A stretch of DNA of 64,000 nucleotides. It comes from Acidisoma sp. PAMC 29798 (GTDB lineage: Bacteria > Pseudomonadota > Alphaproteobacteria > Acetobacterales > Acetobacteraceae). The stretch covers positions 4,335,001 to 4,399,000 of the forward strand of contig NZ_CP126994.1 in NCBI RefSeq assembly GCF_030252425.1. The letters are read 5' to 3'. The notes below the pieces were generated by a model. That model ran no database searches. It saw only the letters and a list, made by a program, of their open reading frames with translations, and was not told the DNA's origin. The translations under genes and the position numbers were made by a program. This document shows, piece by piece, positions 35,691-49,234 of this stretch (position 1 is its first letter; each line of letters begins with the position of its first letter).

Positions 35691-35723
35691 TGTGCTGTAT
35701 CGTAACGAATAAGTCAGGGTGTG

Positions 35724-38700
35724 ATGAACCTCAAGCTCGGCGGCGCCATGGCCCGTGCGCAGCCGGCTTTGCCGGACAAGGACTATGTTTCACCCGGTCT
35801 CGCCGTCATCATGCCGGATGCAGCCTTCCCGAACATGGTGGTGGGGGATACCCGCGTGCCGCGCTGGCCGTGGTTGCGGCGCTGGGTGGAGCAGAACTGG
35901 TACACCGACCGCCGCAATCCGGATGCCGGATTCGCCAGCCGCGATGAGGCGGCGATCCTGTATAACAGCGCCCTTCTGGTCCGCGGCAAACCCTGCCTGG
36001 AAGTGGGATGCTGGCGCGGTTGGTCGACGGTCCACCTCGCCCTCGGTGCAGGCGCGGTGCATACCGTCGATCCCATCCTGGGGGACCGCGACTTTGCCGA
36101 AAGCCTGCGCGCCTCCTGCAAGGGCGCCGGCGTCATCGACCGTGTGAGCGTCCACGAAGGGTCCAGCCCCGGCGCCATCGACACGCTGTCCCAATCCACC
36201 GGGACCCGCTGGTCCCTCATTTTCATCGATGCCGATCACGAGGGTGATGCACCCTGCCGCGATGCGGAAGCGGCCCTCAGGAATGCGGCGGACACCGCCC
36301 TGGTGCTGTTCCACGATCTGGCCTCCCCGTTTGTGGCGGCCGGGCTTGATGTGATGCGCAACGCGGGCTGGCGCACGATGGTTTACCAGACCATGCAGAT
36401 CATGGGCGTGGCCTGGCGCGGCGAGATCGAGCCGATCGCGCATATCCCCGATCCTCGGATGTTCTGGACACTTCCTGCGCATCTCGCGGGTTACGAGGTC
36501 AGCGGCTGGAAACGCCCGACACTGCCCCGCATCGATGGTGGGTGGTGGCCGAACATGACCTTGGAGGATCGTGTTCGCGCGGCGGCCTTCCGGGCGCAGG
36601 CGGCCGAAGATGACCGCACGGCCATCCTGCTCGAGCATCGGGCCGCCATGGCGTGCGCCCAGGGCGAGATGGACCACCTTCGCGCCATGGTCGCGACTGA
36701 GCGTGCCGGCGCGGGGCGCGCCGAGGCGCGTCTGGTTCCCTTGGCGGAGCGGCTGGGTGCCGCCGCGCTCGAATGCGACCAACTTCTGCGCCGTGCCCAG
36801 GCCGCTGAAAGCCGCCTGGAGGACTTGGCGGCGTCGCAGCGACAACAGGAAATCGCGCATCAAGCCCTCGACACCCAACGCCGGCAGAGGCTGGCCCGTG
36901 CCCTGGGCCAGAGCCATGAGCAGGAGAACGGAGCCATTTTTGAATTGGCGCGATGGGCGGCGCGCAAACGCGTATTGATCGGGTTGCTGCGGCGGTCCGC
37001 CCCTGAACGCAATGCCATTCTGGGTAGACAGATCGTCGTTCTTGGCATCCGCGCCCCGATCGGAGCGCCACTCATAGCGTCGCTTTTGCATCGAGCCGGG
37101 GTATTGCGGTTGCTGCGGCGATCCACGTCATCAGCCGAGGCGATAGTGGCGTCCCAGCTTTTGCGGGCGGCGATGACCTGCCGTGACCGTGCGCTGACGG
37201 GGGCGCTGACGGAGGCGCTGATGCCGGCGCTGAACCCGCCGGATGCCGGCGCCCCGCCGCTTCCGCCGCGCGCGGAGGCGGAGGCATTTGGGGAGATGGC
37301 GGCGCTCGATGAGGCCGTCGCACGCGTTCATGCCACCGCCTTGTTCGATAGCGACGACTATCGGGCACGCGCGGGTCTGGATCAGCGGACGATCGATCCG
37401 GCGTTGCATTATGTGCTGCTGGGGGAAGCGCTGGGGATCGGACCCTGCCCGACCTTCGACCCATCCTATTATGCCGCGCGCTACCCGGATGTTTTACACG
37501 CCGGCCTCGGTCTATTTCTGCATTATGCCGAGCATGGCCGGGCGGAGGGCCGATCCGGCACCATGCCCGTCCTGTCCCATGCCACTGCGCGGCAGGGCGC
37601 GCCGGACCGTGAGAACGTCATAGTCGTCGTGCATGAAAGCTCGCGCAGTGGCGCGCCGATCCTGGGCTGGAACATCGCCCGGCATTTGGCCGCGCGCTAC
37701 AATGTGTTCACGGTTCTCCTCGGCGATGGGCCATTGACGCAGGACTTCCAGGCCGTGAGCGCCGAGACCTATGGACCTTTTCCGCCAAGCCAACGTGAGG
37801 GCGTGGATATCGCCTACGGCTTACGGTCGTTGTTCGCGAACCGCCGCTTCCGATACGCGATCGTCAATAGTTCCGAATCGCGCCGGGCCGTGGAAGTCTG
37901 CGCCCGGCACGGGGTGCCGACGCTCTTTCTGCTCCATGAGTTCGGGACCTATGTGCAGCCTGTCGCCGAACTTCGGAGCGCCTTTGACTGGGCAACCGAG
38001 ATCGTCTTTCCGGCAGCCATTGTGGCGCGATCGTCTGAAACCGTGCATCCGGCGCTGAAGGATCGCCCGATCCACATTCTTCCGCAGGGCATGTCGGTGG
38101 TGCCCAAGGGCAAGTCGCTGCCCAAACCCATGCCGCTGGCCACGCTTGGCGGCCTTGCGCAGGCGCGGGAATTGGGGACGTTCCTGGTGCTGGGTGCCGG
38201 TTCTGTGGAGTTCCGCAAGGGTGTGGATCTTTTCCTGGCGACGGCGTCCACGACGGTATCAGGATCCCGTCGCGGCGGCCTTGCGCGTCCCTTGCAGTTC
38301 GTTTGGGTCGGTCATGGCTATGAGCCGACCGAGGACATGGAGTATTCGCTTTACTTGCATGAGCAGATACAGCGATCGGGCCTGGAGGATCATGTGACCT
38401 TCCTCAGTGAGGTTGCGGATCTGGAGCCGATTTATGCCCTGGCGGATGCCTTTCTGTTGTCCTCGCGGCTCGACCCGCTGCCCAATGTCTCCATCGACGC
38501 AGCCTGTCGCGGGATTCCCGTCATCTGTTTTCGGGACTCCAGCGGTATGGCGGACCTGATGCTGGCGGACCCGCTGACGGCGGCCGGCGTCGTGCCGCAT
38601 CTCGATGCCGAAGCGGCGGGACGGGAGATCACGCGTCTCGCATCGGACCCTGCCGCGTGCCGCGGAATGTCGGAGGCGACGATGCGTCTGGCGCATGAGA

Positions 38701-38774
38701 TCTTCGACATGGAGCGCTATATCGGCCAGCTTGATGCCTTGGGTCGGGCGCATGGACCGGGGGCGGGGCGGTGA
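35724..38774 (+). CDS. SAM methyltransferase - 'NPDV' motif - GT4 glycosyltransferase fusion
   Basis: A 1016-residue fusion. Residues 75-230 are a class I methyltransferase (LEVGCWRGWSTVHLALGAGA, later SLIFIDADHEGD). Residues 290-400 are a probable coiled coil rich in Ala, Glu and Arg. Around residues 545-615 are two 'NPDV'-type units (FDSDDYRARAGLD..., then FDPSYYAARYPDVLHAGLGL). The last 380 residues are a GT4 domain: LFLLHEFGTYVQPVAELRSA, VLGAGSVEFRKGVDLFL, SSRLDPLPNVSIDAACRGIP. It probably modifies and extends a cell-surface glycan. The ATG at 35724 follows CAGGGT; a GTG directly before it is the alternative. It overlaps the epimerase gene by 4 bases. Confidence 0.87.
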   Translation: MNLKLGGAMARAQPALPDKDYVSPGLAVIMPDAAFPNMVVGDTRVPRWPWLRRWVEQNWYTDRRNPDAGFASRDEAAILYNSALLVRGKPCLEVGCWRGWSTVHLALGAGAVHTVDPILGDRDFAESLRASCKGAGVIDRVSVHEGSSPGAIDTLSQSTGTRWSLIFIDADHEGDAPCRDAEAALRNAADTALVLFHDLASPFVAAGLDVMRNAGWRTMVYQTMQIMGVAWRGEIEPIAHIPDPRMFWTLPAHLAGYEVSGWKRPTLPRIDGGWWPNMTLEDRVRAAAFRAQAAEDDRTAILLEHRAAMACAQGEMDHLRAMVATERAGAGRAEARLVPLAERLGAAALECDQLLRRAQAAESRLEDLAASQRQQEIAHQALDTQRRQRLARALGQSHEQENGAIFELARWAARKRVLIGLLRRSAPERNAILGRQIVVLGIRAPIGAPLIASLLHRAGVLRLLRRSTSSAEAIVASQLLRAAMTCRDRALTGALTEALMPALNPPDAGAPPLPPRAEAEAFGEMAALDEAVARVHATALFDSDDYRARAGLDQRTIDPALHYVLLGEALGIGPCPTFDPSYYAARYPDVLHAGLGLFLHYAEHGRAEGRSGTMPVLSHATARQGAPDRENVIVVVHESSRSGAPILGWNIARHLAARYNVFTVLLGDGPLTQDFQAVSAETYGPFPPSQREGVDIAYGLRSLFANRRFRYAIVNSSESRRAVEVCARHGVPTLFLLHEFGTYVQPVAELRSAFDWATEIVFPAAIVARSSETVHPALKDRPIHILPQGMSVVPKGKSLPKPMPLATLGGLAQARELGTFLVLGAGSVEFRKGVDLFLATASTTVSGSRRGGLARPLQFVWVGHGYEPTEDMEYSLYLHEQIQRSGLEDHVTFLSEVADLEPIYALADAFLLSSRLDPLPNVSIDAACRGIPVICFRDSSGMADLMLADPLTAAGVVPHLDAEAAGREITRLASDPAACRGMSEATMRLAHEIFDMERYIGQLDALGRAHGPGAGR

Positions 38775-39721
38775 GCGAGCACCACCTGATCCTCGGCGGT
38801 GGCGGCTTCATCGGCAAGCATGTGGCTCTGCTATTGGCGCAAGCCGGCCATCAGGTCACCCTCGCCGGGCGTCGGCCTCTTGTCCATGCGATGCCCGCCG
38901 CCTTGGCGGACCGCGTTACGTTCCGGCGTTTGGAACTCGGTTCCGCCGACTGGGATGCCCTGGTGGCGAAAGCGGACGTGGTCCATCACTACGCATGGGG
39001 ATCGCTGCCGGCGAGCGCCAATGCCAATCCCGGTGGCGATCTGCGCACCAATGTCGGTTTGACGATCGACATGCTCGACGCGCTGCATCGCCGCGGGGCT
39101 GGTCGTGTGGTCTTCTCCTCATCGGGCGGCACGGTCTACGGCAAGCTGCATGCAGTTCCGGTATCGGAAGATCATCCCATGGCGCCCATCACGGCCTACG
39201 GCGCGGGCAAGGCGACGGCGGAGGTCTATCTCGGTCTCTATCGGGCCATGCATGGCCTTGATTGTCGGATCGCGCGTATCGCCAACCCCTATGGTGCGGG
39301 CCAGGACCTGTCACGCGGGCTTGGCGCGGTCACCACCTTTTTGCATCACGCTCTGAACGGTCTGCCGATTACCATCTGGGGAACCGGTGACGTGGTGCGG
39401 GACTATATCCACATCGCCGATGCGGCGCAGGCCCTGGTCGCTCTGGCGGCAGCCCCCCGCCATGAGACCTTCATCTTCAATGTCGGGAGTGGGGTCGGCA
39501 TCAGCCTCAATGAGATCGTGGCCGAGCTGGAAACCCGGCTGGGCCGAACCCTGGATGTGACCCGGACCGCGACGCGGGCCTTCGACGTTCCGATCAGCCT
39601 CCTGTCGGTCGCGCGGGCGAAGTCTGTGCTGGGTTGGGCACCCGCGCTGTCCTTCACGGATGGTATGGCCCGTACGCTGGACGATCTGCGCCGCAACCTG
39701 CCGTTCTCAACCTTGAACTGA
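38771..39721 (+). CDS. NAD-dependent epimerase/dehydratase family protein
   Basis: A 316-residue extended short-chain dehydrogenase. The NAD-binding loop is LGGGGFIGKHVALLL, and the catalytic Tyr/Lys pair is in ITAYGAGKATAEV (YxxxK). VFSSSGGTVYG holds the active-site Ser. Such enzymes make or interconvert nucleotide sugars (UDP-glucose 4-epimerase type). The start is a GTG overlapping the previous TGA (GTGA), so it is translationally coupled to the methyltransferase-GT4 protein. The last 15 bases overlap the convergent GT39-like gene. Confidence 0.9.
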   Translation: MSEHHLILGGGGFIGKHVALLLAQAGHQVTLAGRRPLVHAMPAALADRVTFRRLELGSADWDALVAKADVVHHYAWGSLPASANANPGGDLRTNVGLTIDMLDALHRRGAGRVVFSSSGGTVYGKLHAVPVSEDHPMAPITAYGAGKATAEVYLGLYRAMHGLDCRIARIANPYGAGQDLSRGLGAVTTFLHHALNGLPITIWGTGDVVRDYIHIADAAQALVALAAAPRHETFIFNVGSGVGISLNEIVAELETRLGRTLDVTRTATRAFDVPISLLSVARAKSVLGWAPALSFTDGMARTLDDLRRNLPFSTLN

Positions 39722-41458
39722 GACGCCGCACTGGGGCGGAGTAAGGGCGGGCGTCCATACACCGATCATCTGGCCGTCCGGGGCTGGCCAAAGGTGACGT
39801 TGCACGAACCCCGCCTGGCGCGCCGCTTCGGCCACCATCGGCCGATCGATCGCCGGCGGGAAATCCCCGCCAAGTCGATCGGACGTGAGCAGGGCGCAGG
39901 CGCTGGCGCTCACGGTCTTGAGCCAGTCGCGATAGCCCGCCACGGACGGGCGCGTCACGGCGGGATCGATTTGGATTTCGGCGAAGGCGCCATGCGCGTG
40001 CAGGAGTTCCGCCAGGTTGACGGTGTTGACGTTAAACAGCCCGTTCCGAAAGGCGAAGGCGATCGTGGCATGGAGACCGAAGGTTTGCGTCAGCCAATCG
40101 GCGGCGACGGTGCTGAGCGTGACCCAGGCGCGACTGGTCGTGCGATCGACGGGTTCGACCGCGCCCCTTGCCCCGTATCCGACGAAGGCTTGCGCGATCT
40201 GGATGGTGCCGCGCCCCTGCGTGACGGTGATGCCCGTGAGAACGGGCAGGCCGAGGACGGTTTCACGGGCCAGCGGTGACCGGAGATCCAGGCTCGGCAC
40301 GGTGCCCAGAATCGCCACAAGGGCGACGAGAATGGCCACCGTCGCATCGACCCGGCGGGACGTGCTGAGTCGCCACAGGCTCCATGCCGTGAGTGCCAGC
40401 AAGCTCGGCACGATGGGCGCGAAGAAGCCGGTGCCCTTGTTGTTGGATGTGGTGAGGACGAGCACGGCTTCCGCCGCGACAATGACCACGGGCAGTGCCT
40501 GTGACTGCAGGATGCGGCGCGCGGTCTGCGCTGCGCCATCGGCCGCCGCGCTCCGCACTGTGATGGCGAGCAGACCGAGAAAGCCCAGGATGATCATTAG
40601 GAGATGCGGCAGATAGAGGCTGCTGCCGAAGTCCTGCAGCATAGCGCGCCAGGCGTCGAACCCAAGCTTGGAGGTATGCGGCCCATAATTCCGCGCGTGA
40701 CCGCCATAGCCGTAACTCAGAAGGTAGTGCGTCACCAGACGGCCGTTGGGCCAGAGCCAGGTCGCACTGACCGACCCGGCCAGGACAAGGCTGCCGAGGA
40801 GCACGCCGAGGCGGCGGATCCGGTGCAGGGGATCGACGATCACGACGATGAAGGCCGCCGCCACGAGGCCGGGCACGAAGGCGATGGTCATCGTCCGCGC
40901 CAGCGGCATCAAGCCGAGGCAGAGCCCGAAGGCGGCGCCCCAGGACACACGCGCGAAGCGCGCGGAGCGGAGGATCGCGACGAGGGCGAGCGTCGTGACA
41001 AGCGCGGCCGGCATCGCGAACTGGAAGGCCCGGGCATAGATGATGATGACGGGGCAGGAGGCGGTAAGCACAGCCGCCATCAGGCCGACACGGCGCGTGC
41101 CGAGCACGCGTCCCATCATGGAAGCGGCGAGGATGCATCCGGCGCCTGCCGCCAGGGGCACGACGAACCCGGCTATGACATGCGGCCCGACGAGTGCGAA
41201 CACCAGAGACGCGAGGGCCGTGGTCAAGGGCGCCTGGATGCTGGGCATGTCGATCGCGGCGATCCAGCCGTGCAGCCCGCCATACAGCAGGCCGTTATAA
41301 TCGACGACGGCGAGGCAGAGATAACCGGCCTCGTCGATATCGAGCGTGAGGCCATGTCGGTAGACCCAGATCCAGCGCGCGCCGATGCCGATGAACAGCA
41401 GCACGATGGCGAGCAGGCACCGCCGATACCAAAGGATGCTCGTCGCCCGCCGCTCCAC
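39707..41458 (-). CDS. GT39-like integral membrane glycosyltransferase
   Basis: A 583-residue protein with about 11-12 hydrophobic helices and a periplasmic C-terminal part. The acidic motif LDIDEAGYL (near residue 40) after the first helix is the DE motif of the ArnT/PMT (GT39, GT-C) superfamily, which uses polyprenyl-phosphate sugars. The start is a GTG at 41458 with GGCGAGGCG about 10 bases upstream; the G of this GTG is the last base of the TAG of the preceding small ORF. It is convergent with the epimerase and probably acts on the same glycan. Confidence 0.83.
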   Translation of the reverse strand: MERRATSILWYRRCLLAIVLLFIGIGARWIWVYRHGLTLDIDEAGYLCLAVVDYNGLLYGGLHGWIAAIDMPSIQAPLTTALASLVFALVGPHVIAGFVVPLAAGAGCILAASMMGRVLGTRRVGLMAAVLTASCPVIIIYARAFQFAMPAALVTTLALVAILRSARFARVSWGAAFGLCLGLMPLARTMTIAFVPGLVAAAFIVVIVDPLHRIRRLGVLLGSLVLAGSVSATWLWPNGRLVTHYLLSYGYGGHARNYGPHTSKLGFDAWRAMLQDFGSSLYLPHLLMIILGFLGLLAITVRSAAADGAAQTARRILQSQALPVVIVAAEAVLVLTTSNNKGTGFFAPIVPSLLALTAWSLWRLSTSRRVDATVAILVALVAILGTVPSLDLRSPLARETVLGLPVLTGITVTQGRGTIQIAQAFVGYGARGAVEPVDRTTSRAWVTLSTVAADWLTQTFGLHATIAFAFRNGLFNVNTVNLAELLHAHGAFAEIQIDPAVTRPSVAGYRDWLKTVSASACALLTSDRLGGDFPPAIDRPMVAEAARQAGFVQRHLWPAPDGQMIGVWTPALTPPQCGVSVQG

Positions 41459-41748: not shown

Positions 41749-42849
41749 GTGACGATAATGTGCCGAATGGGTCGTGCGGCGATGATGTCCGCGTGTTTGT
41801 TGGCATGGGGATCAGTGGCCCATGCCGCCGATATCCCATCTTACATGGATGATATCGTTGCGGCGACGCCTCCCGCTGCGCCGCAAAGTGCCACGGACAA
41901 CGTCATCGCGCTGAACAATGCGATGTTCGATCTCTATGGTCAGGCGGGCGCCTTGGCTCAGCAAAGTATTCTTGCGCGGCATCCGATCATTCTGGGTCTG
42001 TTTTCGGGTGCTGGCGGGCAGCTTATCCTGTATCGGCCCGGCCAGCCGCCCGTCACCGCGCCGTCCGTGCCGGTCGTCTATCAACTTCTGAAGTCGATCG
42101 GCCACAGCACGATGGTGCTGGCCGTCGTTGCCGGACCGCATCTCGACAAGCCGGACGATCAATCCTGGCGCGGCCCCATCCAGGCCTATCGCACACGGAT
42201 GCAGACGGCCCTCGACAGTCTGGCTGCGACCGCGATGCCGGCCGAATGGTTGGACAACAACCGGGTCATCCTGAAGCAGAACATTGCCTTCATGGATGAC
42301 TGCCTGGCCAAGGGCGTCATTACCTTTCCGGCCTTGCAGGCCTTTGCCGAGGCGCAGAAAGCCCCGATCAAGCTGGATGTCCAATGGGCCGCCGAAACGC
42401 AGGTTCATCATTGGATGGATGTCATCGCCGGCTGGAAAAAAGAACTCGGACCAAGCTGGGCCGACACCTATGCCGCCAGCAACACGATCTATGTGGCGCG
42501 TCAGAACAACGTTATTTTCAGTACTCTGGCTCAGTTCTTCGACAAGGATGCGATGAATTCGCGCCTGATCCTGATCGAGACCATGGGCTTCACGACGACG
42601 CCGCAGGATATGCTGGATTCGCTGACGCGAATCATTTCGGATCGGGCTGTCGGTGCGTTGTTCTTCGGCAATGACAGGTTGATGGATTACGAACTGATGG
42701 GGGGCAATGCGCGTGATGCCCTGATCAAGGAAGCGACCGCGCGCGGGATGACACCCTTCCTGCCGCCGGCTGTGCCCTTCGGCTCGCATCAATGGCCGAT
42801 GTTGGTCAGCACCGGTCCCGGTGCTACGTCGATCACACAGCTTCCCTGA
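41749..42849 (+). CDS. Exported protein of unknown function beside molybdenum hydroxylase genes
   Basis: A 366-residue protein with a cleavable signal peptide (CLLAWGSVAHAAD, cleavage after AHA around residue 27). The mature part is mixed alpha/beta with IALNNAMFDLYGQAGALAQQ, LILYRPGQPPV and LFFGNDRLMDYELMGG; no family is recognised. The start is a GTG at 41749 with GGGGGAA 9 bases upstream, and the ATG at 41758 is an alternative. The FAD subunit gene of the Mo hydroxylase starts 41 bases after its stop on the same strand. A periplasmic substrate-binding or accessory role is only inferred. Confidence 0.75.
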   Translation: MTIMCRMGRAAMMSACLLAWGSVAHAADIPSYMDDIVAATPPAAPQSATDNVIALNNAMFDLYGQAGALAQQSILARHPIILGLFSGAGGQLILYRPGQPPVTAPSVPVVYQLLKSIGHSTMVLAVVAGPHLDKPDDQSWRGPIQAYRTRMQTALDSLAATAMPAEWLDNNRVILKQNIAFMDDCLAKGVITFPALQAFAEAQKAPIKLDVQWAAETQVHHWMDVIAGWKKELGPSWADTYAASNTIYVARQNNVIFSTLAQFFDKDAMNSRLILIETMGFTTTPQDMLDSLTRIISDRAVGALFFGNDRLMDYELMGGNARDALIKEATARGMTPFLPPAVPFGSHQWPMLVSTGPGATSITQLP

Positions 42850-42890
42850 TAGCCTGCGCCCGCGGCCACTCGAACAAGAAGAGAAACACG

Positions 42891-43730
42891 ATGGATCTCG
42901 TCTCGATCAAGGATGTCCGCCATCCCCGGTCGGATAACGACATTCCGCCCTGGCGCGCCGGCTATGGCTGGCTCGCCGGCGGGACCTGGTTGTTTTCCGA
43001 GCCGCAATGGGCGCTCGATACCTTGATCGATCTCGAAGGGCTCGGTTGGCCTGCGCTCCAAATTTCGCCTGAAGGGTTGGAGATCGCGGCGACCTGCCCG
43101 ATCGCCTTGGTCGATCGCTTCGTCGCACCGCCCGAATGGACGGCTGCGCCGCTTTTCGCATTCTGCTGCCAGTCCCTTCTGGCGTCGTTCAAGGTTAAGT
43201 ATTCAGCGACGGTCGGCGGCAATATCTGCATGTCTTTGCCCGCTGGCGCGTTGACATCGCTCGCCGTGGCGCTGGAGGCGACCTATACGCTGTGGCCACG
43301 GGACGGCGAGCCGCGTGTCGTGCCATCGGCCAGCTTTATCACGGGCAACCACGCCAATATCCTGGCCCCGGGGGAGCTGATGCGTAGCATCCACATTCCC
43401 ATCGCGGCGCTGACGAAGCGGTTCGCCTGTCGCCATATGTCGCTGACCCATCTCGGCCGCTCCGCCGCACTGATCATCGGCACACGCGGCGTGGATGAGG
43501 CGGGCTTCCTGCTGACCATCACGGCGGCGACGCCCACGCCGGTGCAGATCCATTTTGCGGAGATGCCGACTGCCGAGGAACTGCGGCAGGCGATCATGGA
43601 CAGGATCGACGACGAACACGGGTATTTCGAAGATCCCCATGGGCGCGCGGACTACAAGCGGCACCTCACCCGCGCCTTCGCCGAGCAGATCAGGGTCGAA
43701 CTCTCAGCCCCGACGGAAGCCGCCGCATGA
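42891..43730 (+). CDS. Molybdenum hydroxylase FAD-binding subunit (CoxM-like)
   Basis: A 279-residue medium subunit of a xanthine dehydrogenase/CO dehydrogenase-type enzyme. The FAD-binding segments are GYGWLAGGTWLFSEPQ near the N-terminus and YSATVGGNICMSLPAGA about residue 105. The C-terminal CODH flavoprotein domain follows. The start at 42891 follows AGAAGAGAAA; the open frame to 42792 is unlike the family. The stop overlaps the next gene by 4 bases (ATGA). It should pass electrons from the 2Fe-2S clusters of the large subunit to an acceptor. Confidence 0.9.
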   Translation: MDLVSIKDVRHPRSDNDIPPWRAGYGWLAGGTWLFSEPQWALDTLIDLEGLGWPALQISPEGLEIAATCPIALVDRFVAPPEWTAAPLFAFCCQSLLASFKVKYSATVGGNICMSLPAGALTSLAVALEATYTLWPRDGEPRVVPSASFITGNHANILAPGELMRSIHIPIAALTKRFACRHMSLTHLGRSAALIIGTRGVDEAGFLLTITAATPTPVQIHFAEMPTAEELRQAIMDRIDDEHGYFEDPHGRADYKRHLTRAFAEQIRVELSAPTEAAA

Positions 43731-46450
43731 ACGCCATCACGCCCGTCCCGAAGTCCATCCTGATCGATGGTGAGACGGTCACGGCCGAGCCGGGTCCGGG
43801 TCAGTGCCTGCGCACCTTCCTGCGCGACCAGGGCGCCTTCGGGGTCAAGAAAGGGTGCGACCAAGGCGATTGCGGCGCCTGCACCGTCTGGCTCGACGGA
43901 CATCCAGTTCATTCCTGCATCACCCCGGCCGGGCGCGCGATGGGACATGCGGTCACCACCATTCGCGGCCTCGCCCCGCCGGGCGAGTTGCATCCCGTGC
44001 AGCAAGCCTTCCTGAACGCGCAGGCCTATCAATGCGGTTTCTGTACCGCCGGCATGATCATGACGGTGGCGACGTTCGATGATGCGCAGCGCGCTGATCT
44101 GCCGCGGAACCTCAAGGGCAATCTCTGTCGCTGCACCGGCTACCGGTCGATCGACGATGCGATTCATGGCCTGACTGAAGTTGAGACGGACACGGCCGGC
44201 AAGGCCTGCGGCACCAATTTGCCCAATCCCTTCGGACCCGGAATCGTCACCGGCCACGCCCATTACACGATGGATATCGCCCCGCCCGAGGGGCTGGTGC
44301 ATTTGAAGGTTCTGCGGTCACCGCATCCGCATGCGCGGATCACCGCCATCGGTCGCGACAAGGCCTTGGCGATACCCGGCGTGGTGGCAGTATTTACCTG
44401 GGAAGATGTGCCGCAACGCTTGTTCAGCACGGCAACGCATGAGGATCATCTGGTCGATCCCGACGACACCAAGGTCTTGGACAATGTCGTGCGTTTCGTC
44501 GGGCAGCGGATCGCGGCCGTGGTGGCTGAAACGGTCGCGGCGGCCGAGGAAGGTTGCCGCGCGCTGGATGTGAGTTACGAGATCCTGCCGGCAGTCTTCG
44601 ATCCCGAGGAGGCGATGGCGCCGGGCGCCCCGCAGATTCATGCCGAGCCAGGCGCGGAGCGCGACAATGTCTTCGCCGATATCCATGGCGAAGTCGGCAG
44701 CGTGGCAAAGGGCTTTGCCGAAGCGGACATCATTCACGAAAAAACCTATTCGACATCGCGGGTACAGCATTCGCATCTGGAAACGCATGGGTCCATCGCA
44801 TGGACCGGCGAGGATGGCCGGATGCATGTGCGCACGAGCACCCAGGCGCCGTTCATCGCCAAACAGAAGCTGTGCCATATCTTCGACTTGAAGCCGATGA
44901 AACTGCATGTCTTTACCGAGCGTGTCGGTGGTGGCTTCGGCGGTAAGCAGGAAATGCTGTCCGAGGATCTGTGCGTTCTCGCGACCATGAAGCTCGGTCG
45001 GCCGGTGAAGTGGGAGTTTACGCGCGAGGAGCAGTTCATCGGCGCCAGCACGCGCCATCAGATGACGACGCATGTGAAACTCGGCGCCAAGAGCGACGGC
45101 AAGCTGACCGCGATCGAGATCCGCGTCGTCTCCAACACCGGCGCCTATGGCGGCCATGGCAGCGAAACCCTGGGGGCATCCCTGGGCAGCCCGATGAGCG
45201 CCTATGTCTGCGCCAACAAGAAGGCCCAGGGCTTTGCGGTCTATACCAACATGGTCCCGGCCGGTGGCTTTCGCGGCTATGGCGCGTCCCAGAGCACCTT
45301 CGCCATCGAATGCGCAATCGACGATCTCGGCCGTAGCCTCGGCATCGACCCCTTTACGATCCGGCGCCGTAACATGATCGGACCCAATGACTGGATCCAA
45401 TCGGTGTGGGAGGAAACGGCGGATGTCGGCTTCGGCAGCTACGGGCTCGACCAATGCATGGATCTTGTCGAGGCGGCGCTCGCGGAAGACGGCGGTTTGC
45501 CGATGCCGGCTGGCGCGGATTGGGCCGAGGGCACTGGCGTCGCGCTTGCCATGCTCGATTGCGGACCGCCGACGGAGCATCGCTCAGGCGCCTTGATGGG
45601 CCTCAAAGGCGACGGCACCTATCATCTCGCGGTCGGATCGACCGAGATGGGCAATGGCTCCGTCACCTCGCACCGGCAGATTGCGGCGTCGGTGCTGGGG
45701 GCGCGTGCCGGGTCCATCGCCATCATCAATGCCGATACCGATCGCACGCCCTACGATACGGGAACCTTCGCGAGTACCGGCACTGTGGTGGCCGGTCAGG
45801 CCGTCAATCTGGCGGCCGTGGCGCTGCGGGACAATATCCTGAGTTTCGCGGCCCGGCATACGGGCACGGACCGCGAGGCCTGGGGCCTTGAAGCCGATGT
45901 CGCGGTGGCCGGCAACCACCGGATTCCTCTCACCGAGTTGCATGCCGCTGGCCGAGCTGTCGGCCATCGGTTCGAGGCGATGCGCAAAGCCTATCTGTCC
46001 CCACGCACGACCGCATTCAACGTGCAGGGCTTCCGCCTTGCGGTGAACCGGGTCACGGCGGAGATTCGAATCCTGCGCAGCGTTCATGCTGCGGATATCG
46101 GCACGCCGATCAATCCGATGCAGTGTCGGGGCCAAATCGACGGGGCCATCGCGATGGGCCTCGGCTGGGCGCTGACCGAGCAGATGCTGTATGACGATCA
46201 TGGAACGATGACCAATCCAGCGTTGCGCAACTACCGGATTCCCGCCTTCTCCGACACGCCGCGCACCGAGGTGATGTTCGCCAAGACGCATGACACGATC
46301 GGGCCGCTGGGCGCCAAATCCCAGGGTGAATGCGCGATCAACCCCGTGGCGCCGGCCATTTCCAACGCCTTGGCGGCGGCGACCGGGGTGCGCTTGGCGC
46401 ATCTGCCCTTCTTGGCAGATCGCATCTACAAAGATTTGCAGACCGCATGA
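43727..46450 (+). CDS. Molybdenum hydroxylase, fused 2Fe-2S and molybdopterin-binding subunit
   Basis: A 907-residue protein with the iron-sulfur and Mo domains on one chain. Plant-type 2Fe-2S cluster ligands are C44, C49, C52 and C64 (GCDQGDCGAC); the second cluster uses C103, C106, C134 and C136 (QCGFC and LCRC). From residue 165 on are the aldehyde oxidase/xanthine dehydrogenase Mo-binding domains with VGGGFGGKQ and MVPAGGFRGYGASQ. The catalytic Glu is in GAKSQGECAINP near the C-terminus. The domain order and length resemble Desulfovibrio aldehyde oxidoreductase, yet a separate FAD subunit is present. The substrate is probably an aldehyde or N-heterocycle. No XdhC-type maturase is encoded nearby. 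Confidence 0.92.
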   Translation: MNAITPVPKSILIDGETVTAEPGPGQCLRTFLRDQGAFGVKKGCDQGDCGACTVWLDGHPVHSCITPAGRAMGHAVTTIRGLAPPGELHPVQQAFLNAQAYQCGFCTAGMIMTVATFDDAQRADLPRNLKGNLCRCTGYRSIDDAIHGLTEVETDTAGKACGTNLPNPFGPGIVTGHAHYTMDIAPPEGLVHLKVLRSPHPHARITAIGRDKALAIPGVVAVFTWEDVPQRLFSTATHEDHLVDPDDTKVLDNVVRFVGQRIAAVVAETVAAAEEGCRALDVSYEILPAVFDPEEAMAPGAPQIHAEPGAERDNVFADIHGEVGSVAKGFAEADIIHEKTYSTSRVQHSHLETHGSIAWTGEDGRMHVRTSTQAPFIAKQKLCHIFDLKPMKLHVFTERVGGGFGGKQEMLSEDLCVLATMKLGRPVKWEFTREEQFIGASTRHQMTTHVKLGAKSDGKLTAIEIRVVSNTGAYGGHGSETLGASLGSPMSAYVCANKKAQGFAVYTNMVPAGGFRGYGASQSTFAIECAIDDLGRSLGIDPFTIRRRNMIGPNDWIQSVWEETADVGFGSYGLDQCMDLVEAALAEDGGLPMPAGADWAEGTGVALAMLDCGPPTEHRSGALMGLKGDGTYHLAVGSTEMGNGSVTSHRQIAASVLGARAGSIAIINADTDRTPYDTGTFASTGTVVAGQAVNLAAVALRDNILSFAARHTGTDREAWGLEADVAVAGNHRIPLTELHAAGRAVGHRFEAMRKAYLSPRTTAFNVQGFRLAVNRVTAEIRILRSVHAADIGTPINPMQCRGQIDGAIAMGLGWALTEQMLYDDHGTMTNPALRNYRIPAFSDTPRTEVMFAKTHDTIGPLGAKSQGECAINPVAPAISNALAAATGVRLAHLPFLADRIYKDLQTA

Positions 46451-47403
46451 TGGACGCGACCATGGCGGAGGCGACCGTCGTCACCCAGACCGGCGTGCGG
46501 CTGGACCGCACTGCCGAATTCGACATCTGGCAGAGCGAGACCAGCCGCATCATTGCAGGATTTCCCGGTTTCCTGAAGCAGACCGTGCTGCCGCCGAGCC
46601 CGCCGGCGCAGGATGACTGGGTCATTCTGCAGCGCTTCGCGGATTCGGTTTCGGCGATCCATTGGCTCAATTCGCCCGAGCGATTGGCGCGCCTGACCAC
46701 GGTGCAACCGTTGCTGAATGGACGCGCCGATGTTCATGTCGTGCGCGGGGCGGCCGAGGCGCCTGCGTCGCCCCCCGTTTCCGCCATCATCTCGACCCGC
46801 GTGAAACCCGGTTGCGAGGAGGCCTATCGGCGCTGGGAGCAAAGGATTGCCGTTGCGCAGTCTGCGGCTGTGGGCCTGCAAGGCTATCGGTTCGAGCCGC
46901 CGATCGCCGGTGTGCAGGATGATTGGCTGGCCATCCTGCGCTTCGACACGCAGGACAATTTGCAAGCCTGGCTGGATTCGCCGACGCGCAAGGCGATGGT
47001 GGCGGAGGCAGAGCCGCTTACGGAAGAGTTCCACTACCGCATCGCGCGTACCGGCTTCGATCAATGGTTTCCGGTTCCGCGTGAGGGGGAAAAGCCCCCC
47101 GCCATCTGGAAGCAGAACCTCATTGTTCTGTCGATGCTCTACCCCGTGGTGTTTCTGTTCGGCCACTTCGTGCAGATGCCGCTGCTCGTCACGGCCTGGG
47201 GTATCCCCTTCGCGATTGCCTTGCTGATCGGCAATGGCGCCAGCATCATCCTGCTGAACTGGCTGGTGCCCTGGACCAGTAACAGGTTCCTGTGGTGGTT
47301 GAGCCCAAAGGCCCGTTCCGGCCCACGCGTGGATGCCCTCGGCGCCGGCATCCTGGCCGGTGTCCTTGTCGTGTTGGCGCTGATCTTCTGGCGTCTGTTC
47401 TAG
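46447..47403 (+). CDS. Tandem antibiotic-biosynthesis-monooxygenase (ABM) domain membrane protein
   Basis: A 318-residue protein with two ABM-type ferredoxin-fold domains (about residues 8-95 and 105-200). The first contains RIIAGFPGFLKQTVLPP and the second VKPGCEEAYRRWEQRI. Three membrane helices follow (SMLYPVVFLFGHFVQMPLLV, then FAIALLIGNGASIILLNWLV, then ILAGVLVVLALIFWRLF). The ATG overlaps the Mo-subunit TGA (ATGATG), so it belongs to the same operon. Related ABM-membrane proteins exist in proteobacteria without a defined role. Quinone or heterocycle chemistry is conceivable given the neighbours, but this is inference. Confidence 0.85.
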   Translation: MMDATMAEATVVTQTGVRLDRTAEFDIWQSETSRIIAGFPGFLKQTVLPPSPPAQDDWVILQRFADSVSAIHWLNSPERLARLTTVQPLLNGRADVHVVRGAAEAPASPPVSAIISTRVKPGCEEAYRRWEQRIAVAQSAAVGLQGYRFEPPIAGVQDDWLAILRFDTQDNLQAWLDSPTRKAMVAEAEPLTEEFHYRIARTGFDQWFPVPREGEKPPAIWKQNLIVLSMLYPVVFLFGHFVQMPLLVTAWGIPFAIALLIGNGASIILLNWLVPWTSNRFLWWLSPKARSGPRVDALGAGILAGVLVVLALIFWRLF

Positions 47404-47415
47404 CGGGCAGCGCGG

Positions 47416-48060
47416 CTACGGGCTTTCGCGCTTTGTGCTGCCGCGCACGGTTTCGCTTCCGGTCATGATCGTGGCGCCACGGAGCAGCACGGCCGCGAGC
47501 GCCGCCTGGGAATTCATGCCGGTCTGCGCGAGAAGTTTTTTCATGCGCGTGCGGACGGTCCCGATCGGGAGCCGCCGGGTCTGCGAGAATTCGGACAGAT
47601 TGACACCGACGGCCAGGCATTCCGCCAAAGACGCATTCTGAGGCGAAAAGCCGAAGGCGAGTTTCGCCCAACCCTCGTCCAGCAGCATGGGTGCGCGAAG
47701 CTCCGCCACGCAGACGACGACCAGATCTTGCCCCGCAACAGGCTCAACCCGCAGGAGAGCGGTCACCTCGCCCTGCCGTGTGAGGAAGCGGATCAGTTCG
47801 GATTGCTTGGTCGTCGCGACGCGGGTGACCGTTTCGGTCAAGACGTGGGTGTCGCTTTTCCGGCGGATCACCAGCCGGCGGTCCTGCGACCGGTAAAACA
47901 TGCGCGCGACGCGGAGAAGGTCGTTTCCCGCGCGGTTGGAATCGAGGATCAGACACTCTGGGCTCAAGGTGAAGACAGGCACAGAAATGATATCCATTGC
48001 CACACGGGTCGCCGCGACGATTGAAGGTCCGTCCCGTATGGCCGTGTTCTCAAGCTGCAT
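47416..48060 (-). CDS. LuxR-type HTH regulator with PAS-like N-terminus
   Basis: A 214-residue regulator. The N-terminal 120 residues resemble a PAS-type sensor (VFTLSPECLILDSNRAGNDL). Residues 135-200 form a LuxR-type HTH with LAECLAVGVNLSEFSQTRRL followed by IGTVRTRMKKLLAQTGMNSQ. Its stop lies 12 bases from the convergent ABM gene, and the gene is divergent from the hydroxyproline epimerase, so it may regulate the epimerase, the Mo operon or both. Confidence 0.82.
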   Translation of the reverse strand: MQLENTAIRDGPSIVAATRVAMDIISVPVFTLSPECLILDSNRAGNDLLRVARMFYRSQDRRLVIRRKSDTHVLTETVTRVATTKQSELIRFLTRQGEVTALLRVEPVAGQDLVVVCVAELRAPMLLDEGWAKLAFGFSPQNASLAECLAVGVNLSEFSQTRRLPIGTVRTRMKKLLAQTGMNSQAALAAVLLRGATIMTGSETVRGSTKRESP

Positions 48061-48220: not shown

Positions 48221-49234
48221 ATGACGGCAGCGACGGCCTTCCATACCTTTCAGTGCATTGACGGCCATACCTGCGGCAATCCGGTCCGGTTGGTTTCGGG
48301 CGGCGGCCCCTTGCTGCGCGGAACCAGCATGAGCGAGCGGCGGCAGGACTTTATGGCGCATCATGACTGGGTGCGCCGTGCGCTGATGTTCGAGCCGCGC
48401 GGACATGACGTGATGAGTGGCTCCATCCTCTATCCGCCGACGCGCGAGGACTGCGACATCGGGATTCTGTTCATCGAGGTGTCAGGCTGCCTGCCGATGT
48501 GCGGGCATGGCACCATCGGCACGGTCACCATGGCGATCGAAAACGGGCTGGTAACGCCGCGAGAGGAGGGGCGCCTGGTTCTGGACGCCCCGGCCGGCCG
48601 GGTGGTGGCGGAATACCGGCGTGACGGTCGTTTCGTGGACAGCGTTCGCATCCATAACGTGCCGTCGTACCTCGCGGCAGAGGGCGTGCGGATCGACGTG
48701 CCTGGGCTGGGCGCGCTTGTGGTCGATGTCGCCTATGGCGGGAATTTCTACGCCATCATCGACCCGCAGCGGAATTTTGCGGGCGTCGAGACCTTATCGG
48801 TGGGCGAGATCCAGCGCCTCAGCCCCATCGTGCGCCAACTGATGCAGGAGGCTGTGACGGTGGTGCATCCCGAGGACCCGACCATCAACGGCGTCAGCCA
48901 TGTGCAATGGACCGGCGCGCCGCGCGATAAGCGCGCGCACGGGCGCAACGCGGTCTTTTACGGCGACAAGGCGATCGATCGGTCGCCCTGCGGCACCGGC
49001 ACTTCGGCGCGCATGGCGCAGCTCGCGGCCAAGGGCCGGCTCAAGGTCGGGGATGAGTTCATCCACGAGAGCATCATCGGCAGCCTGTTCGAGGGCCGGG
49101 TCGAGAGCGCGGTGACGGTTGGCAATCAGAGCGGGATAAGGCCGAGCATCGCCGGCTGGGCGCGCATGCACGGCTACAACACCATCTTCGTCGATCCGCG
49201 CGATCCCTTCGCGCATGGGTTTCAGGTGATTTAG
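48221..49234 (+). CDS. 4-hydroxyproline 2-epimerase (proline racemase family)
   Basis: A 337-residue proline racemase superfamily enzyme. The two catalytic Cys are C94 in LPMCGHGTIGT and C257 in DRSPCGTGTSARM, so it should be a racemase/epimerase rather than the dehydratase type (Thr in place of the second Cys). HTCGNPVRLV near residue 15 is also typical. The likely reaction is trans-4-hydroxy-L-proline to cis-4-hydroxy-D-proline. The other hydroxyproline-degradation genes are not in view. The gene is divergent from the LuxR-type regulator. Confidence 0.9.
   Translation: MTAATAFHTFQCIDGHTCGNPVRLVSGGGPLLRGTSMSERRQDFMAHHDWVRRALMFEPRGHDVMSGSILYPPTREDCDIGILFIEVSGCLPMCGHGTIGTVTMAIENGLVTPREEGRLVLDAPAGRVVAEYRRDGRFVDSVRIHNVPSYLAAEGVRIDVPGLGALVVDVAYGGNFYAIIDPQRNFAGVETLSVGEIQRLSPIVRQLMQEAVTVVHPEDPTINGVSHVQWTGAPRDKRAHGRNAVFYGDKAIDRSPCGTGTSARMAQLAAKGRLKVGDEFIHESIIGSLFEGRVESAVTVGNQSGIRPSIAGWARMHGYNTIFVDPRDPFAHGFQVI

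Follow-up and report, generated by a model that had tools for sequence, protein, structure and literature searches.

What reaction would bring together, in one set of four genes, a molybdenum (Mo) hydroxylase, an exported protein of unnamed family and a membrane protein with tandem ABM domains? This question is raised by a locus in the 64-kb stretch of DNA analysed here (the window), and we address it through the layout of the genes, their relatives in other genomes and the partners that they keep or exchange.

An operon-like unit around a Mo hydroxylase

The genes EXP, FAD, MO and ABM form an operon-like unit on the plus strand (Table 1), with a gap of 41 bp between EXP and FAD and with ATGA overlaps at FAD/MO (43727-43730) and MO/ABM (46447-46450), the overlaps by which an earlier note on this DNA had joined the last three genes. 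That note had also proposed the four genes and their link, with which the gene calls, the domains and the conserved order in other genera agree; because the identical gene order was found again in other genera, the operon goes beyond chance. Scans for sigma-70 promoters and terminators gave signals at or below chance.

Table 1. Positions of the operon genes and of the facing open reading frame in the window
Feature	Position	Strand	Description
EXP	41749..42849	+	366 aa, GTG start; predicted exported protein, unnamed family
FAD subunit of Mo hydroxylase (FAD)	42891..43730	+	279 aa; FAD_binding_5 5.5e-14
Fused 2Fe-2S/molybdopterin subunit (MO), clade I	43727..46450	+	907 aa; Fer2, Fer2_2, Ald_Xan_dh_C, MoCoBD_1, MoCoBD_2
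Tandem ABM domains and three C-terminal membrane helices (ABM)	46447..47403	+	318 aa; Pfam ABM 7.5e-8, second copy
Possible LuxR-like regulator directed towards the operon; may or may not belong to it	47416..48060	-	similarity to GerE regulator at L157

The LuxR-like open reading frame gave no match in the Pfam search and shares 23% identity over 185 aa (E 4e-6) with the GerE regulator, which lies downstream of ABM at L157. Upstream of the operon (35721-41458) lie genes for a glycosyltransferase, an NAD-dependent epimerase-like protein and a PMT_2-type membrane protein, names that, PMT_2 excepted, were assigned by reading the sequence. A gene for a 4-hydroxyproline epimerase (48221-49234; NF010578, 592 bits against a cut-off of 376) is apparently separate from the operon.

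The exported protein and the membrane protein

EXP carries a Sec-type signal ending AHA/AD, and in-frame ATGs at 41758 and 41767 follow its GTG start. It gave no Pfam match at E ≤ 0.1 and no NCBIfam match at E ≤ 0.01, which bears out the earlier description of an unrecognised secreted protein. Its predicted structure (AF2, pLDDT 85.8) is mainly helical with a small sheet. Some 85 positions do not vary among 37 homologues (two of them His, several Arg, Asp or Glu, many Trp/Tyr), and neither a conserved Cys nor CxxCH was found, a pattern that would fit an enzyme or a ligand-binding protein better than a redox carrier.

In ABM, the Pfam model was detected in the second copy only (32.9 bits against a cut-off of 23.1), and the fold is that of the ABM superfamily. 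The structural model (pLDDT 86) contains two beta-alpha-beta-beta-alpha-alpha-beta units, so that both copies of the double ABM noted earlier appear though Pfam detects one, followed by the expected three membrane helices (220-250, 255-280 and 292-317); the best Foldseek matches were two-domain ABM proteins. Segments rich in Arg/Lys before helix 1 and between helices 2 and 3 suggest a cytoplasmic orientation of the ABM domains. ABM is the only protein of the operon that is predicted to be anchored in the membrane.

MO as a xanthine oxidase family enzyme with a non-standard pocket

MO contains both 2Fe-2S domains, the hammerhead domain and both Moco-binding domains (Pfam), keeps the catalytic Glu and has a FAD_binding_5 partner, all of which place it in the xanthine oxidase family (molybdenum hydroxylases). 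The GGT and TVGGN motifs are retained in the FAD subunit. The motif GPLGAKSQGE or GPLGAKAQGE is present in MO and in all of its clade I relatives (see below). No export signal was found in the MO and FAD sequences, nor any membrane helix in MO. The enzyme had been called MOP-like; its fused 2Fe-2S/Mo polypeptide and separate FAD subunit stand, but it is closest to 4-hydroxybenzoyl-CoA reductase alpha and to enzymes of the XdhA type, with MOP only second.

The best NCBIfam score of MO was to XdhA (NF043082; 542.6 bits, below the cut-off of 780), and MO also fell below the cut-offs of the xanthine dehydrogenase equivalog (TIGR02965; 291.5 against 849.5) and of Se_sel_red_Mo, the XdhD type (TIGR03313; 458.8 against 1101.9). 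At the positions of Glu802, Arg880, Phe914 and Phe1009 of mammalian xanthine dehydrogenase (XDH), MO has Gln, Ala, Tyr and a gapped Pro region, respectively. Since Arg880 and Phe1009 are missing and Glu802 is replaced by Gln, the pocket is not a standard xanthine site.

Conservation of the window-type operon

A search of GTDB species genomes returned 113 relatives of EXP, of which the best 80 (58-66% identity) were analysed; because these loci are the best-scoring of the 113 and many are from Bradyrhizobium, the counts are not independent. The order EXP-FAD-MO-ABM was found in 10 loci (L036, L041, L042, L071, L080, L095, L096, L106, L107 and L110), and one further locus of the best 80 shows EXP-FAD before its stored stretch ends. 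The hosts, about a dozen genomes, belong to Rhodomicrobium, Microvirga, Dankookia, Belnapia, Polaromonas and unclassified Alphaproteobacteria. The window-type loci are partly redundant, L036 and L042 being, by the EXP tree, from one genome or two nearly identical ones and L071 and L106 being identical to the family genomes G367 and G559.

Among 299 genomes of the family (Acetobacteraceae), relatives of MO form two groups, clade I (at least 68% identity) and clade II (50-56%), in both of which the FAD gene adjoins MO. ABM adjoins MO in all clade I members (G506, G559, G367, G378, G535 and G022). EXP is present in 5 of these 6 genomes versus 1 of the 293 others (Fisher p about 2e-9, window genome excluded and kinship ignored); the exception among clade I genomes, G022, has FAD-MO-ABM and no EXP, and in the sole other genome with EXP, G006, the gene is cut by a contig end. 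Clade II consists of FAD-MO with neither EXP nor ABM adjoining. This co-occurrence makes an undescribed oxidation unit with a predicted periplasmic component, as proposed in the earlier note, well supported, but not the membrane site given there, as MO has neither signal nor membrane helix. A distant relative of EXP (22% identity, with a signal peptide) lies in another genome of the family (G028, L117:8380-9384).

The earlier note had counted it against its reading if EXP and ABM occurred mostly without Mo genes. For ABM this is partly the case, as homologues stand apart from clade I-type MO in five genomes (G001, G002, G003, G004 and G318); for EXP it is not (see below). In the last four of these genomes, a second group of ABM-three-helix proteins is followed by a TadA-like deaminase (L119:8594-15304 in G003; L118, L120 and L156), and at the G003 locus there are also genes for a Tat-type-like Mo subunit, for a 2Fe-2S subunit and for a cytochrome in which CxxCH occurs three times.

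Clade II and the case for purine breakdown

Adenine deaminase is encoded next to clade II MO in G002 (TIGR01178, 575 bits against a cut-off of 472.5) and G005, and TRZ/ATZ-type aminohydrolases in G465 and G397. Of the 282 family genomes that lack clade II, 103 have standard XDH; of the 17 that have clade II, none does (p 0.0009, kinship ignored), and the two alternate inside the genera g1, g19, g27 and g28. Because of these neighbours and of the exclusion of standard XDH, clade II is probably an XDH replacement, and it offers a testable candidate for the xanthine dehydrogenase missing from many genomes of the family. Clade II FAD-MO loci include L113:6611-10125 (G002), L115, L165 and L169; the Rieske neighbour at L165 is not claimed as a urate oxygenase, its sole NCBIfam match being weak (65.7 against 600).

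By extension, clade I MO might be a xanthine/hypoxanthine dehydrogenase variant and the whole operon ordinary purine breakdown, as its top score to XdhA and the behaviour of its sister clade would suggest. We consider this possible but unlikely. In the window genome and in G022 clade I occurs together with standard XDH, and in G535 together with clade II; it is therefore not simply an XDH replacement. Moreover, although clades I and II share the catalytic Glu and the Gln at Glu802, the Arg880 position is Ala in 14 of 14 clade I sequences and His in 13 of 13 clade II sequences, and it is not clade I but clade II or the second ABM group that has the purine-related genes next to it.

EXP is shared with a second Mo hydroxylase

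EXP adjoins another Mo hydroxylase, here called Tat-type, in 61 of the best 80 of the 113 loci. Its Mo subunit of about 920 aa has a twin-arginine signal in 60 of 61 cases, and its operon contains a 2Fe-2S subunit without a signal and a cytochrome c with two CxxCH in 59 of 60. Eight of the 80 loci are without an adjacent Mo gene, and seven of these eight genomes hold one elsewhere: six carry a Tat-type Mo subunit (64-71% identity), and the seventh (L038), identical with G506, has clade I MO. In the remaining one, the metagenome-assembled genome of L093, a genome search found no Tat-type enzyme. A Mo hydroxylase, mostly of this other type, is thus present in 79 of the 80 EXP genomes.

A Tat-type ortholog was found in none of the nine window-type genomes searched, one of which has a paralog at 41%; judged from these genomes, the two Mo types are near-exclusive. 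Well-supported branches of the EXP tree force at least five changes of partner type; as read from this tree, EXP is constant while the Mo enzyme is exchanged. That EXP is shared by two types of Mo hydroxylase suggests one unstudied breakdown route with interchangeable enzymes. Over 353 residues the two kinds of Mo subunit are only about 27% identical, which counts against a common substrate; that they have one is suggested by linkage.

Alternatively, EXP may contact Mo hydroxylases as a partner in their assembly, stability or electron transfer and not act on the substrate, a role in keeping with its tie to Mo enzymes of either type in nearly all of these genomes and with its many invariant positions, which suggest tight constraint. 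However, EXP carries an export signal and clade I MO and FAD have none, so that contact would be unexpected at the predicted locations; EXP has no conserved Cys or CxxCH; and Mo partners so far apart over their aligned parts would offer a poor common docking surface. We therefore regard a contact role as quite improbable. That the linkage reflects inherited synteny or mobile catabolic islands with no functional tie is very hard to uphold: many EXP loci are from Bradyrhizobium with common surroundings, and the presence of EXP in the window genome alone of five congeneric genomes makes transfer likely, yet the place of EXP relative to the Tat-type genes varies (upstream 49, downstream 9, opposite orientation 3), so that simple inheritance of one arrangement fails to explain the link, its partner changes repeatedly on the tree, and unlinked loci still have a Mo enzyme elsewhere in the genome.

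Recurrent neighbours and the substrate class

An exported PuuE-like protein adjoins EXP in 12 distinct loci that cover both Mo types: Tat-type loci (L049, L075, L103, L104, L108 and L109), window-type loci (L110 and G506, the latter being the same place as L038) and loci whose Mo partner is not adjacent (L082, L093 and G006); the set includes L142 and L116. A search of the 64-kb window found no PuuE-like gene, which speaks against the module proposed below. AraC regulators, related to one another at 38-84%, stand in divergent orientation next to EXP, ABM or Mo operons of differing types: beside the window-type operon at L095, beside EXP alone at L054 and L065, beside the second ABM group operon with its Tat-type-like Mo enzyme at L119, which is from the window's own genus, and, as an apparently broken copy, beside a Tat-type operon at L075. 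We read the PuuE-like protein and the AraC regulators around both types as support for a single catabolic module. A common branched-chain-type ABC transporter at L161 and L060 was considered and rejected, as the binding proteins align at 20% only.

PuuE belongs to a family of cyclic-amide hydrolases, the allantoinase family. The PuuE-like neighbour, the adenine deaminase and aminohydrolases beside clade II and the TadA-like deaminase of the second ABM group all point to an N-heterocycle, purine-like or other, as the likely substrate class.

A proposed catabolic module

We propose that these genes belong to a catabolic module in which either of two Mo hydroxylases can serve, a proposal that we judge to have an even chance of being right and of which the substrate class is the weakest part. 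The small molecule that the module would break down is most likely an N-heterocycle (purine or similar ring). EXP would handle the compound first, in the periplasm; since it is retained with either Mo enzyme, it is expected to follow the substrate or product and not one enzyme. In the window genome, the compound or the EXP product would then enter the cytoplasm, where MO and the FAD subunit may hydroxylate a ring carbon next to nitrogen, with electrons passing from Mo through two 2Fe-2S clusters and FAD to a soluble acceptor. ABM, presumably on the inner membrane face, might process the product or couple the step to the membrane. Elsewhere, equivalent chemistry would take place in the periplasm through the Tat-exported Mo subunit, the 2Fe-2S subunit and the di-CxxCH cytochrome c, with EXP retained.

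A bolder version, which we advance tentatively and think somewhat doubtful, is that EXP founds an unrecognised periplasmic substrate-processing family in whose pathway the Mo hydroxylase has been swapped on five or more occasions, the alternatives being a FAD-linked enzyme of the cytoplasm and a cytochrome-linked one of the periplasm. If so, identical chemistry would have changed sides of the membrane while its first step stayed where it was. Many Mo hydroxylases of environmental genomes have no known substrate, and a constant partner such as EXP would be a handle on it: if the module exists as proposed, two different and separately testable enzymes should share one compound, and the pair would let one oxidation be compared in nature on the two sides of the inner membrane.

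Comparison with known systems

In titles and abstracts we found neither the operon nor EXP described, nor lpg1979 or a periplasmic Mo enzyme linked to PuuE. The sole full-length fold match of EXP, and its best in the PDB, is 4jx2, the putative secreted protein lpg1979 of Legionella (Foldseek E 8e-5, probability 1.00); both proteins are putatively secreted. Their superposition reaches Z 13.2 over 274 residues at 6.1 Å, a level (Z 13-14) that helical models also attain without kinship, and they share only 12-14% identity; a search of PDB sequences with the EXP profile did not return lpg1979. That search gave a weak, short match to a plant terpene synthase (E 0.27), taken as chance. RNase-H/ASKHA-like and ion-channel helix fold matches, middling and covering part of the model, were set aside, and the fold search in BFVD gave nothing significant.

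The PuuE-like protein beside EXP matches PuuE allantoinase (TIGR03212; PDB 3cl6) over its full length, but differs from it by scores far below the cut-off (55-71 bits against 424.6) and by a signal peptide in several loci.

With XdhABC-type xanthine dehydrogenase, MO shares the domain set and the catalytic Glu, but it differs by its fused 2Fe-2S domain, its sub-cut-off score and the Ala at Arg880. E. coli XdhD/YgfM (TIGR03313, TIGR03312) likewise has 2Fe-2S and Mo parts fused in one polypeptide and FAD on a small protein of its own, though the window FAD subunit scores only 16.8 against the YgfM cut-off of 241.5. We know of no exported partner and no ABM protein for XdhD/YgfM.

The second partner of EXP shares its design with Tat-exported periplasmic Mo hydroxylases (PaoABC and isoquinoline 1-oxidoreductase-like enzymes with cytochrome c), namely a twin-arginine Mo subunit, a 2Fe-2S subunit and a cytochrome c. 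In PaoABC itself, the Tat signal sits on the 2Fe-2S subunit. The Tat-type Mo subunit scores 118 bits against a PaoC cut-off of 1180, and the window enzyme differs from this design in that it is not predicted to be exported.
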